From: Treponema sp.
Lineage (GTDB): Bacteria > Spirochaetota > Spirochaetia > Treponematales > Treponemataceae
Reading direction: 5' to 3'
Assembly: GCA_021442965.1 (NCBI GenBank)
Contig: JABUUX010000412.1
Span: 1-6,115 of the forward strand
Length of the DNA: 6,115 nt
Shown here: positions 2,633 through 5,818 of the stretch, piece after piece
Numbering within the stretch: position 1 is the first letter of the stretch
How the letters are laid out: each line of letters begins with the position of its first letter
Notes under the pieces: model-generated
What the model was told of the DNA's origin: nothing
Databases searched by the model: none
Seen by the model: only the letters and a program-made list of their open reading frames with translations
Made by a program: the position numbers and the translations under genes

Positions 2633-2667
2633 AAATCTTTGCGATTTTCAAGGTTTATATATAACTC

Positions 2668-2696
2668 TTGTGTTTCAGCGGTTTTCAGAATAAAAT
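2668..2696 (+). promoter_or_regulatory. Possible sigma-70 promoter for rsmI
   Basis: TTGTGT (2668-2673, three of six against TTGACA) and TAAAAT (2691-2696, five of six against TATAAT) are separated by exactly 17 bases. They lie in the 96-base gap between the phosphoesterase and rsmI, with transcription expected near 2703 and a leader of about 26 bases. The spacing and -10 box are good and the -35 is weak. AT-rich DNA produces such matches by chance, so this is a candidate only. Confidence 0.35.
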
Positions 2697-2728
2697 ATAA
2701 AAAGGTGCTTTTTAGCATTTGGATTATT

Positions 2729-3439
2729 ATGGCTGAACTTTATGTTATTGGCACACCAATAGGAAATTTGGGTGATATTACTCTTAGGGCAATAGAAACC
2801 TTCAAGAATGTTGATTTTGTAGCTTGCGAGGATACGCGACATACTCTCCAGCTTTTGAATCATTTGGAGATAAAAAAACCGCTTATTTCCTGCCGTGCAC
2901 AGAATGAAAAACAGGTTTCGGAAAAGATAATCCAGCTGCTTTGCGAAGGGAAGTCGGTAGCTTATGCTTCTGATGCCGGAACACCAGGTATTTCTGACCC
3001 GGGAGCTGTACTTTGCGACTGTGTTCGAGAGGCAGGCTATAATGTTGTTCCAATTCCAGGAGCAAGCGCATTTGCTACTTTGGTTAGTGTGGCTGGAGCA
3101 GGTGGTAAAACTCTTATTTTTGAAGGATTTTTATCTCCAAAGCCCGGAAGACGCCGTAGCAGAGTAAAAGAACTGATGGCAAGCGGAGCTGCAGTAATTA
3201 TTTACGAATCTCCGTTCAGAATTGTAAAGTTGCTGACAGATATTGCCGATACTGATAGTAATCGGCGTATTGTGGTGGGCCGTGAGCTGACAAAGCTTCA
3301 CGAAGAGATTACGAGCGGGAGTGCAAAGGAAGTGTTGGACAACTATGCATCCCGTCAGTCTATCAAAGGTGAATTTGCAGTTTTCATTGCCGGGGATAAA
3401 AATAGTATTCAGAATTCTGAAGATTCTGCCGATAATTAA
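2729..3439 (+). CDS. rsmI: 16S rRNA (cytidine-1402 2'-O)-methyltransferase RsmI, short form
   Basis: RsmI uses S-adenosylmethionine to 2'-O-methylate C1402 of 16S rRNA in the ribosomal decoding centre. The 236-residue product opens with the conserved MAELYVIGTPIGNLGDITLRA, which fixes the start at ATG 2729 with GGA 5 bases upstream. The frame is open back to a TTG at 2639, but the extra 30 residues resemble nothing in the family and would cover the candidate promoter. Tetrapyrrole-methylase-fold motifs follow: EDTR (34-37), SDAGTPGISDPG (81-92), IPGASA (109-114), GFLSPKPGRR (133-142), YESPFR (159-164), GRELTKLHEE (184-193) and KGEF (213-216). The protein ends about 20 residues after KGEF, so the extra C-terminal domain of longer homologues such as the E. 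coli protein (about 286 residues) is absent. flgM begins 21 bases downstream, and the 3' part of this gene contains both sigma-28-like elements described separately. Confidence 0.94.
   Translation: MAELYVIGTPIGNLGDITLRAIETFKNVDFVACEDTRHTLQLLNHLEIKKPLISCRAQNEKQVSEKIIQLLCEGKSVAYASDAGTPGISDPGAVLCDCVREAGYNVVPIPGASAFATLVSVAGAGGKTLIFEGFLSPKPGRRRSRVKELMASGAAVIIYESPFRIVKLLTDIADTDSNRRIVVGRELTKLHEEITSGSAKEVLDNYASRQSIKGEFAVFIAGDKNSIQNSEDSADN
3225..3252 (+). promoter_or_regulatory. Candidate sigma-28 (FliA) promoter inside rsmI
   Basis: TAAAGTTG (3225-3232) matches seven of eight bases of the enteric sigma-28 -35 consensus TAAAGTTT, and GCCGATAC (3245-3252) matches seven of eight of the -10 consensus GCCGATAA. 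The spacer is 12 bases against the usual 11. Transcription would start near 3259 and run about 200 bases to flgM. The site lies in rsmI codons (the -10 falls on Ile-Ala-Asp-Thr), so it may be coincidental, but both boxes match well on the strand leading into a flagellar regulator. Confidence 0.45.
3408..3421. repeat. Perfect 14-base palindrome upstream of flgM
   Basis: TTCAGAATTCTGAA equals its own reverse complement over all 14 bases; the flanking bases (A 3407, G 3422) do not extend it. It lies in the last codons of rsmI, 6 bases before the exact GCCGATAA box, covering the position where a sigma-28 -35 element would sit. It could be an operator for a dimeric regulator. By length alone, roughly 0.4 such palindromes are expected by chance in a window this size, so location is the only argument. 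Confidence 0.4.
3428..3435 (+). promoter_or_regulatory. Candidate sigma-28 -10 element immediately upstream of flgM
   Basis: GCCGATAA is an exact match to the sigma-28 -10 consensus and overlaps the end of rsmI (Ala-Asp-Asn codons just before its stop). Transcription would begin near 3442, leaving a short leader that contains the flgM ribosome-binding sequence. At the expected 11-base spacing the -35 region reads TCAGAATT (3409-3416), only four of eight against TAAAGTTT, so the upstream half is weak. It would place flgM under the sigma factor that FlgM inhibits, as known for one flgM promoter in enteric bacteria. Confidence 0.5.
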
Positions 3440-3460: not shown

Positions 3461-3748
3461 ATGATGATAAAAGGAATTGGTGGAGTAAATCCTCTAAACA
3501 ACGTTCAGAGCACAAAAAAAGCAGAAAATGTTGCTAAATACAGTGCAGGATCTGACTCTATTGAAGTTTCTGATGAAGCCAGACTTAAAGCTGAGGCATA
3601 CTACCTTAAAAAAGTAGCTGACGAAACACCTGATGTTCGTGCAGACAGAGTTGCAGAAGTAAAAGCAAAAATAAAAGATCCGTCTTATCTGAGCAACGCT
3701 GTGTATCAGTCAGCCGCAGAAGGTCTTCTGGCCAGTTTCGGTCTTTAA
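3461..3748 (+). CDS. flgM: Anti-sigma-28 factor FlgM
   Basis: FlgM binds the flagellar sigma factor FliA (sigma-28) and blocks late flagellar gene transcription until it is exported through the completed hook-basal body. The 95-residue product has the usual length and layout: a polar, probably disordered N-terminal half (MMIKGIGGVNPLNN, then a Lys/Ala/Ser-rich stretch), the family segment DSIEVSDEA (32-40), and a C-terminal sigma-binding part with PDVRADRVAEVKAKIKDPSY (57-76), ending in ASFGL. Two adjacent ATG codons (3461, 3464) could start it. GAGGGG (3446-3451) suits the first (9-base spacer) and AGGA (3453-3456) suits the second (7-base spacer), so the product may be 94 residues. It lies 21 bases after rsmI, next to an exact sigma-28 -10 box, and is followed by a strong terminator. 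No other flagellar gene is in the window, so flgM is separated from any flagellar operon here. Confidence 0.87.
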   Translation: MMIKGIGGVNPLNNVQSTKKAENVAKYSAGSDSIEVSDEARLKAEAYYLKKVADETPDVRADRVAEVKAKIKDPSYLSNAVYQSAAEGLLASFGL

Positions 3749-3783
3749 GCCGTAAACTAAATTACAAGATTAAATTTATCTAT

Positions 3784-3812
3784 AAAAAAGGCGGGGGATT
3801 CCCGTCTTTTTT
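3784..3812 (+). terminator. Rho-independent terminator after flgM
   Basis: AAAAAAGGCGGG (3784-3795) pairs with CCCGTCTTTTTT (3801-3812) over 12 base pairs with one G-U pair, around the loop GGATT. The GC-rich core is six pairs and is followed by six T and then GTTTT. It ends the rsmI-flgM transcript. The flanking A and T tracts make it nearly symmetric, so it could also act on the minus strand, although no minus-strand gene ends there. It finishes only 24 bases before the next start codon. Confidence 0.92.
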
Positions 3813-3836
3813 GTTTTAGAAATAAAGGAAAAAAGA

Positions 3837-4985
3837 ATGGCAGATTTTGTTTTCAGAATGTCACCGAATGTAATTTTGGGGTCTTATACTACAACAAGAC
3901 TCGGGCAGCTTGTTCGTGAATGGGGAACCCGTTATCTGGTAATTATGGATCCAATTCTTTCTGAAGTTAATCAAAGTGAAAAAATTATTCAGACTTTAAA
4001 TGAAAGGAAGATAGAAAATTTTACATTTAGTGATTTTTCGGACGGATGTTCAACAAAAACTCTGCAGCGTACACTTACATTGGCAAAAGAAGGTCATATT
4101 CATGGTGTAATTTGTGTGGGAGGTTTGAAGACCATGCACATGGGGCGCCTTGTATCGTCACTTTTTAATGAAGCTCACGGATTATATACTTTTGTGGATG
4201 GAGCTGTACCAACAGCAGCGGCACTTCCTTGTATATGTGTTCCAACTACTTTCCGACAGTCATTTGTATTTACTTCTGAAGTTCCGGTTGTAGATTCCAG
4301 AAGCAATCAGACAAAACTGCTTCATGTTCAGAATAATATCTGTAAACTTCTTCTTATAGATCCAAATATGATGCTTACACTTACAGAAAATCAGAAAGCT
4401 TCAATGTCTCTTGATGTAATGTGTATGGCAACAGAAGCATATATTTCTCAAAAAGAGAATTTTTTTAGTGATATGTTTGTAGAAAAAGCAATGGAGCTTC
4501 TAGGCTATGCAATGGATGGAGCAACAAGCTTGGAAATTACAACGCCTGAAGAAATACTACTGGCACAAAGTGGTGTTATGACTTCAATTGCAAATGGTTC
4601 CAGTGCTCTGGGTGTAGCCTCTCTTCTTTCTATGACAATAAATGCACGTTATAAAATTCCAAAATCTCTTGTTTCAACAATACTTTTTCCGTATGTGGTA
4701 GAAGATGCAATTCAATTTAAAGCTGAACGTCTTGCAAAACTTGCAAGACTTATGAAGATTGTTGGGGATGAAACCGATCAGATGGAAGCCGCTCATGCAC
4801 TGGCAGAAAATATCAGGCAAAGAATTGCAAAGGCTAATCTTCCTGCACGACTGAAAGATCTTCAACTTACTGTAGACCAACTGGCTCTGGCTGCAGAAGA
4901 TGCGGGTCAGATTGAAATTGTAAACAAACTCCCAAGGTCAATGACATCTGATGACCTTTTTGACCTTATTAAGCTTGCATACTGA
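3837..4985 (+). CDS. Diverged iron-containing alcohol dehydrogenase family protein, probable pseudoenzyme
   Basis: The 382-residue product has the length and overall pattern of group III (Fe-dependent) alcohol dehydrogenases: an N-terminal nucleotide-binding half (P10-N-V-I-L-G, then VICVGG), PTT (136-138) and a helical C-terminal half with LDVMCMATEAYIS and LFPYVVE. Key residues differ. The GGGSxxDxAK motif reads GGLKTMHMGR (95-104). The GTGSE after PTT is replaced by RQSFV. Aligned by eye to E. coli FucO, ligands D196/H200/H263/H277 correspond to D193/M197/S262/K276, so only the aspartate is kept. Binding of iron or zinc, and probably NAD(P), in the usual way looks unlikely. The frame is intact and composition resembles its neighbours, so this is not a decaying gene. 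The ATG is supported by AAAGGA (3824-3829) 7 bases upstream. No convincing promoter fits between the terminator and the start. The RNA methyltransferase gene follows 8 bases later. Family membership is fairly sure; the function is unknown. Confidence 0.82.
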   Translation: MADFVFRMSPNVILGSYTTTRLGQLVREWGTRYLVIMDPILSEVNQSEKIIQTLNERKIENFTFSDFSDGCSTKTLQRTLTLAKEGHIHGVICVGGLKTMHMGRLVSSLFNEAHGLYTFVDGAVPTAAALPCICVPTTFRQSFVFTSEVPVVDSRSNQTKLLHVQNNICKLLLIDPNMMLTLTENQKASMSLDVMCMATEAYISQKENFFSDMFVEKAMELLGYAMDGATSLEITTPEEILLAQSGVMTSIANGSSALGVASLLSMTINARYKIPKSLVSTILFPYVVEDAIQFKAERLAKLARLMKIVGDETDQMEAAHALAENIRQRIAKANLPARLKDLQLTVDQLALAAEDAGQIEIVNKLPRSMTSDDLFDLIKLAY

Positions 4986-4993
4986 TTTTACAC

Positions 4994-5818
4994 ATGATTG
5001 AACCAACTAAACTAGCGGAACTTTCAGGCGGCCAGAAACGCCGTAAACTGGCTCTTACTTTTGGGGCTCTTGAAAGGGATATTGCGGGCATTGCAGAGAA
5101 GGGAACGGAATATTCCTTCAAAAATATGAGTCGTTCTGCTTATACAAAAAAAATAGCAGAGGTGCTTCTGAAAGATGAAAAACTACCGCAGGAAGCAGCT
5201 GAAGAAATAAAACGTCTTATTCAAGCAGAACCTTTTGATGAACTAAGGCTCTGCAATACAGCAAGGAATCATCTTTTAAGAATAATTGGAACATTCCCTG
5301 CAGAATGGGATTTAGTAATAGCTCCTCATAAATCTCCATTAGAAGAAGACGGTACAGTAAGGCAAAGAGAATGTTTTCCGGGAGTTTGTGTTTATGCAGA
5401 AGATATTCGTTCGCCTTTTAATATAGGTAGTATTTTTCGTACCGCAGAAGGAATGGGCGCTGAAAAAGTGATTCTTTCTCCTTTTTGTGTAGATCCGGAA
5501 CAGCCCAGAGCTATTAGAAGTGGAATGGGATGTATAGAAACTATGGGTTATGAAAGAAAATCTGTAGACGAACTGACGGAGGACGTTCCTGTTTTTGCAC
5601 TGGAAACGGGCGGTACACCAATAGAAGAATTTAAATTTCCGAAAAAAGGTGTTTGTATTATAGGTTCTGAAGAATTAGGAGTTAGCCCTCAAGCCTTGAA
5701 ACGAGCCACTTATGGACGTGTAACAATTCCAATGAAAGGATTGAAAGCAAGTCTGAATGTTGGAGTAGCATTTGGAATTTTAATGCAGAAATGGGTGGAG
5801 TCCTTGAAACAAAACTAA
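4994..5818 (+). CDS. SpoU/TrmH-family RNA 2'-O-methyltransferase
   Basis: The C-terminal half of this 274-residue protein is a SPOUT (trefoil-knot) methyltransferase that should transfer a methyl group from S-adenosylmethionine to a ribose 2'-OH of tRNA or rRNA. Motif 1 is NIGSIFRTAEGMGAE (143-157) with the conserved N143 and R149, motif 2 is IIGSEELGVSP (222-232), and motif 3 is IPMKGLKASLNVGVAFG (245-261) with S253-L-N255. All three are intact. Residues 1 to about 125 are charged and mostly helical and do not resemble the L30e-like substrate-binding domain of common TrmH/RlmB proteins, so the target RNA cannot be named. No Shine-Dalgarno sequence precedes ATG 4994. It lies 8 bases after the upstream stop, and an in-frame stop at 4970 excludes a longer ATG start, so translation probably depends on coupling. 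Its TAA overlaps the stop of the convergent gene. Confidence 0.86.
   Translation: MIEPTKLAELSGGQKRRKLALTFGALERDIAGIAEKGTEYSFKNMSRSAYTKKIAEVLLKDEKLPQEAAEEIKRLIQAEPFDELRLCNTARNHLLRIIGTFPAEWDLVIAPHKSPLEEDGTVRQRECFPGVCVYAEDIRSPFNIGSIFRTAEGMGAEKVILSPFCVDPEQPRAIRSGMGCIETMGYERKSVDELTEDVPVFALETGGTPIEEFKFPKKGVCIIGSEELGVSPQALKRATYGRVTIPMKGLKASLNVGVAFGILMQKWVESLKQN

Follow-up and report, generated by a model that had tools for sequence, protein, structure and literature searches.

An old spirochaete branch of the iron-containing alcohol dehydrogenase superfamily that lacks the metal site and is often encoded near flgM

The 6,115-nucleotide stretch of Treponema sp. DNA analyzed here, referred to as the window, carries, in this order, pheT, two extra genes, rsmI, flgM, a gene resembling those of iron-containing alcohol dehydrogenases (Fe-ADH), trmH and an HDOD-type gene. 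The features in and around the Fe-ADH-like gene are as follows.

2639..3439, + strand: rsmI, for 16S rRNA (cytidine1402-2'-O)-methyltransferase, the upstream partner in a conserved gene order (TIGR00096, 208.5 bits against a cut-off of 167.9)
3428..3435, + strand: GCCGATAA, which matches the sigma-28-type -10 box perfectly and lies 25 nt ahead of flgM, with a weak -35 half (the only match in the window, 0.07 expected)
3461..3748, + strand: flgM, for the anti-sigma-28 factor (Pfam FlgM passes its cut-off, at 3.1e-08; NCBIfam FlgM, at 34.6 bits, falls short of its 40.75)
3779..3820, + strand: terminator-like hairpin with an A-run and a T-run, between flgM and the Fe-ADH-like gene (-18.4 kcal/mol, z -3.27)
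3837..4985, + strand: gene for an Fe-ADH-family protein without metal ligands (382 amino acids, ATG start, no internal stop)
4994..5818, + strand: gene for a TrmH/SpoU-family RNA methyltransferase, 8 nt downstream (Pfam SpoU_methylase 7.5e-29)

The rsmI reading frame as called opens at a TTG; the true start codon is likely ATG 2729 (MAELYVIGTPIGNL), some 90 nt further on. Between pheT and rsmI, the segment 1032-2632 holds a beta-barrel-like reading frame with no Pfam match and a calcineurin-like lipoprotein gene; in four related loci (L001-L004) rsmI directly follows pheT, without these two genes. Searches of the window against Rfam and PHROGs returned no match.

The Fe-ADH-like gene often lies just downstream of rsmI-flgM, and its linkage to flgM and rsmI reaches across the phylum. 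Among 68 Treponema-type loci, some with short flanks, flgM is found upstream in 58 and rsmI in 59, and trmH follows directly in 62, with a gap of at most 30 nt in 57. In 28 deeper loci, rsmI is upstream in 22 and flgM in 19, and trmH is downstream in 9. The original prediction had proposed the neighboring RNA methyltransferase as a partner, which suits the arrangement of the Treponema-type loci but not that of most deeper ones, whereas the linkage to flgM and rsmI is phylum-wide. In loci L076 and L077 the Fe-ADH-like gene and trmH are paired and flgM lies elsewhere (genomes G043, G044 and G049); thus the tie to trmH can persist where that to flgM has gone.

In a draw of 140 genomes from the phylum, FlgM was found in 124, FliG_C in 138 and a match to a profile of the ligand-less branch, at 1e-70, in 112. 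Of these genomes, 107 have FlgM together with the branch, 5 have the branch without FlgM, 17 have FlgM without the branch and 11 have neither (Fisher p 7e-6, a statistic that ignores kinship). Where both occur, flgM lies within 2.5 kb on the same contig, regardless of strand, in 69 of the 107 genomes and is not adjacent in 38. Fifteen loci from genomes scored as having FlgM alone were inspected: five carry a diverged homologue beside flgM and ten have rsmI-flgM without any homologue (rsmI being present in 14 of the 15), so FlgM does not need the pseudoenzyme gene. A diverged neighbor also stands beside flgM in G280 and G321 (L156 and L107). The adjoining rsmI-flgM pair of the ten genomes without the pseudoenzyme (L163-L167, L170, L171, L173, L175, L176) represents a very stable gene order in the phylum. 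Five genomes of 1.0-1.5 Mb (G036, G346, G368, G373, G397) have neither FlgM nor the pseudoenzyme and keep FliG, a parallel loss in reduced genomes.

The -10 box, assigned by the sigma-28 consensus, overlaps the end of rsmI in the window. Of 85 related loci from across the phylum, 63 have a sigma-28-type site ahead of flgM that no more than 5 of 100 shuffles equal, placed at a rather uniform spacing. This suggests that flgM is autoregulated through sigma-28. A site directly upstream of the Fe-ADH-like gene itself was considered and rejected, as it occurs in 9 of the 85 loci with about 5% expected from the threshold. The gap between flgM and the gene is shorter than 30 nt in 26 of 76 loci, and in some lineages the gene may be transcribed from the flgM promoter. 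A terminator-like hairpin is found in 37 of the 50 loci with a gap of at least 30 nt (1.6 expected from shuffles). Because the window has such a hairpin at 3779-3820, its gene more likely depends on read-through or on a promoter of its own, and it may be co-expressed with trmH. A consensus promoter and terminator scan of the window gave no excess over shuffles and did not list this hairpin.

The product of 3837..4985 matches Pfam Fe-ADH (6.3e-20) and ADH_Fe_C (9.1e-21) across residues 11-382 (71.9 and 74.9 bits; cut-offs 31.3 and 27), which puts the entire protein in the Fe-ADH superfamily; the DhaT/FucO-type fold has been preserved, and the frame is intact and full-length, as originally predicted. 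None of the NCBIfam models reaches its own cut-off for this protein, the top one being the ErcA equivalog NF041833 with 117.6 bits against a curated 550. The names on listed homologues, where present, are of the 'iron-containing alcohol dehydrogenase' type or 'hypothetical'.

The metal site was located by alignment with E. coli FucO from MG1655. The ligands of FucO are given in PMC10324492 as D196, H200, H263 and H277, a numbering followed here; the FucO sequence numbers in our alignment are one lower. They align with D193, M197, S262 and K276 of the window protein, in place of the Asp-His-His-His set of group III alcohol dehydrogenases.

4413..4415, + strand: metal-ligand position 1, still D193, where close relatives mostly have E (FucO alignment and homologue counts)
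4425..4427, + strand: metal-ligand position 2, M197 replaces His (FucO alignment and homologue counts)
4620..4622, + strand: metal-ligand position 3, S262 replaces His (FucO alignment and homologue counts)
4662..4664, + strand: metal-ligand position 4, K276 replaces His (321 of 349 listed homologues have K or R)

These replacements recur among the homologues. In the 120 closest, position 193 is E in 109 and D in 11; position 197 is M in 92, I in 11, L in 9, Q in 5 and a few others, never H among the residues listed; position 262 is S in 114 and T in 6; and position 276 is K in 111 and R in 9. The homologue lists comprise the best 120 of 845, 771 and 382 matches from three protein searches, together 349 distinct proteins, of which 235 keep none of the four ligands, 114 keep one and none keeps more. 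Similarly, in a set of 153 sequences made up of the window and related loci, 117 keep no ligand (counting L162, whose sequence ends before the metal site), 33 keep one and three keep two (L081, L083 and L101). Ten loci in which the gene stands apart from flgM (L150-L155 and L157-L160) are likewise ligand-less. Of 446 sequences, 370 combine an acid at 193 with a basic residue at 276. FucO His267, which hydrogen-bonds the catalytic water according to PMC10324492, aligns with M266 and is M or L among the homologues. The loss of the metal site that had been predicted is thus borne out by the alignment, all of the motifs and residues then quoted are correct (including E200-A-Y202, which is present), and canonical residues appear in none of the orthologues examined. 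We infer that the window protein cannot act as a metal-dependent alcohol dehydrogenase, and its dehydrogenase activity may have been lost, as originally proposed. With its catalytic residues gone and its fold and gene conserved, the protein has the features of a pseudoenzyme, and 'alcohol dehydrogenase' is very probably the wrong name for it, in line with the earlier warning about automatic annotation. Because its homologues carry that name or none of substance ('hypothetical'), metabolic models may credit spirochaetes with an enzyme that the protein very probably is not.

The cofactor cleft presents a mixed picture.

3948..3950, + strand: codon of D38, retained, aligned with FucO D39, at the position of the adenine-ribose contact (position from alignment, role from PMC5125639)
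4119..4148, + strand: altered pyrophosphate loop, residues 95-104, GGLKTMHMGR for GGGSxxDxxK
4242..4268, + strand: altered PTTxGTGSE-type loop, residues 136-144, PTTFRQSFV

Section 3.6 of PMC5125639 describes the GGGS motif as 'conserved in all FeADH subfamilies' and has the Asp equivalent to position 38 contacting the adenine ribose in NAD-dependent members. The window protein has GGLK in place of the former, its listed relatives mostly GGxK or GGxR, and it keeps the latter. The original prediction that the cofactor motifs had been lost is therefore too strong: the two loops are altered, but D38, GG95-96, PTT and T146 remain, and K98 is also found in E. coli GldA (GGGK). Among the 349 listed homologues, position 38 is D or E in 347, GG95-96 is nearly invariant, position 98 is K or R in 340 and R occupies position 140 in 301. 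Treponema-type and related members thus largely keep the nucleotide side of the cleft, and an acid-base pair has taken the place of the metal half. The retention of D38, GG95-96 and PTT makes an NAD-type ligand plausible in Treponema-type members. Some deep branches have lost these features, the acid at 38 being absent in part of the deepest loci (for example L116-L145) and GG96 in some as well, and dinucleotide binding therefore cannot be general.

The gene was matched at 1e-5 in 258 of the 274 genomes in the family of a related Treponema genome, and matches at 1e-40 or better, as read from the list, were found in 246 of the same 274. Loci were sampled down to 17-20% identity to the window protein. 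Most of the listed matches carry no source name; the names that are given are spirochaetal except for one unplaced metagenome and one 'Bacteroides sp.' MAG; the latter homologue (P0191, contig up to 996 kb) is 50% identical to the window protein and probably comes from a mislabelled bin. As controls we used FucO together with 4 paralogues (L011-L014) and 11 paralogues (L177-L187) from relatives' genomes, picked as likely canonical, and all 16 have the DHHH ligands. In a quick 121-sequence tree with long branches (GldA 3.56, L169 2.53), the 17 canonical sequences, namely these controls and GldA, fall on one side of a single branch with an SH-aLRT of 99. With the root placed among the canonical enzymes, ligand loss would be one event. 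The ligand-less proteins form a spirochaete branch of the Fe-ADH superfamily that is both old and widespread. The metal site is missing throughout the members sampled, and the pseudoenzyme appears to predate the radiation of the phylum. We found no description of such a branch in the open-licence PMC literature.

On balance, we lean towards a dedicated non-catalytic Fe-ADH branch, kept since before the main spirochaete lineages split, with a binding, regulatory or scaffold role connected with the flgM locus. The cleft of Treponema-type members would probably still take an adenine dinucleotide or a related anionic ligand, the invariant acid at position 38 meeting the ribose, K/R98 and R140 lining the pyrophosphate side, and K/R276 with D/E193 occupying the old metal position. 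The protein would then signal or scaffold through its surfaces. Since the flgM linkage is the deepest, its target would most likely be a product of the flgM (sigma-28) locus or something under the control of that locus, and TrmH may perhaps be a further partner in Treponema. Against a tie to flgM stand the 38 genomes of 107 in which the two genes are not adjacent and the terminator-like hairpin between them in the window. T. denticola FlgM is reported in PMC12655853 to stabilise FliA and to interact with CsrA, which makes unknown partners plausible; with FlgM already behaving unusually in that organism, the flgM-linked pseudoenzyme is a concrete candidate, open to testing, for a component of flagellar regulation in spirochaetes that has yet to be recognized.

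A bolder proposal, which we regard as quite doubtful, is that spirochaetes have an ancient pseudo-dehydrogenase that responds to NAD(H) or nucleotides, works together with FlgM on sigma-28 and so couples redox or energy state to the building of periplasmic flagella, the ancestral metal having been replaced by a Lys or Arg facing the old ligand acid. Bearing on the main reading as well, a first distance-matrix test of the pseudoenzyme against FlgM looked positive, with a partial r of 0.648 given RsmI (70 loci). With FliG as a control, the Spearman correlations with the pseudoenzyme were 0.533 for FliG, 0.356 for FlgM and 0.239 for RsmI, and no FlgM-specific co-evolution signal was seen in these 35 genomes (40 minus the five outlying FliG picks, probably wrong frames, of G285, G334, G341, G364 and G393).

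Other readings of the family were also weighed. A metal-free reductase, which would reduce an anionic substrate with NAD(P)H and with K276 and R140 as basic side chains in the metal's stead, has to be considered because the maleylacetate reductases of this superfamily need no metal for their activity (PMC5125639); PcpE relies on an essential His172 and Lys238 (PMC5741723), and Treponema-type members keep D38, GG95-96 and the basic residues. We nevertheless consider it unlikely, as the maleylacetate reductase signature LHHKLCHTLGG given in PMC5741723 has no counterpart in the window protein (residues 258-268 read LGVASLLSMTI), no His occurs in residues 164-319, the His267 position is M or L, and no metabolic gene adjoins, the neighbors being rsmI, flgM and trmH. 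In addition, the cleft varies at an average rate: across 230 Treponema-type sequences, column entropy is 1.14-1.34 in the loop and metal-site regions against 1.20 overall. This average value argues against a sharply selected pocket, and the idea of a repurposed pocket under strong selection was not supported by the entropies of these 230 sequences.

The same uniformity would suit a pure scaffold, in which the fold survives only as a dimeric surface for contacting other proteins and no lineage binds a small molecule, as would the variation of ligand-site and loop residues between lineages and the loss of the pocket signature in part of the family. The near-invariance of D38 (column entropy 0.04 in the 230 Treponema-type sequences, in addition to the counts among the listed homologues) is hard to explain without a ligand, and we rate a pure scaffold as slightly less credible still. 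A metal-dependent alcohol dehydrogenase that functions through ligands at other positions would fit the intact fold and the automatic names. It is very improbable, since the six His of the window protein are at 87, 89, 101, 114, 163 and 320, leaving none in the metal-site region between 164 and 319 and therefore no shifted His ligand of the kind that could have overturned the original prediction, and since no homologue examined has more than two of the four ligands.

Finally, a decaying pseudogene, to which the lost catalytic residues and the fast divergence over long distances might point (mean protein distance 0.69 against 0.58 for RsmI in 40 genomes), is refuted for practical purposes by full-length frames without internal stops among the homologue matches listed, by the retention of the gene across the phylum and by a dN/dS of 0.021-0.101 in 15 pairs (the window and five close relatives), rough values since dS is near saturation. 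Comparable ranges were obtained for flgM (0.060-0.189, 10 pairs), trmH (0.014-0.091, 14 pairs, one saturated) and pheT (0.023-0.071, 10 pairs); rsmI was left out because three rows were misframed, with pN about 0.7. The closest relatives of the window gene are thus under purifying selection, and two of the checks first suggested for this gene, on dN/dS and on the substitutions across orthologues, agree with a kept, non-catalytic branch, with no sign of decay and at most one of four ligands in 349 of 349 listed proteins.

Among the known systems closest to this branch are the group III Fe-dependent alcohol dehydrogenases of the DhaT/FucO/methanol dehydrogenase type (PF00465 and PF25137), from which the window protein differs in having no metal site and no His267 equivalent and in its rewritten GGGSxxD and GTGSE loops. 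From the maleylacetate reductases (PcpE and GraC/3w5s) it differs in the absence of their HHK..H signature, as described in PMC5741723, and of the GGGS loop. Like E. coli GldA, it has a Lys after the glycines (GGGK there, GGxK here) and an acid at the ribose position; unlike it, GldA, which sits on a very long tree branch, has Asp at the first ligand position together with His at the third. The best NCBIfam match, ErcA, is an alcohol-dehydrogenase-like regulatory protein of Pseudomonas; the window protein scores far below its cut-off, and the loci differ. Nonetheless, with one member of the family named as a regulator, the Fe-ADH fold can serve regulation.
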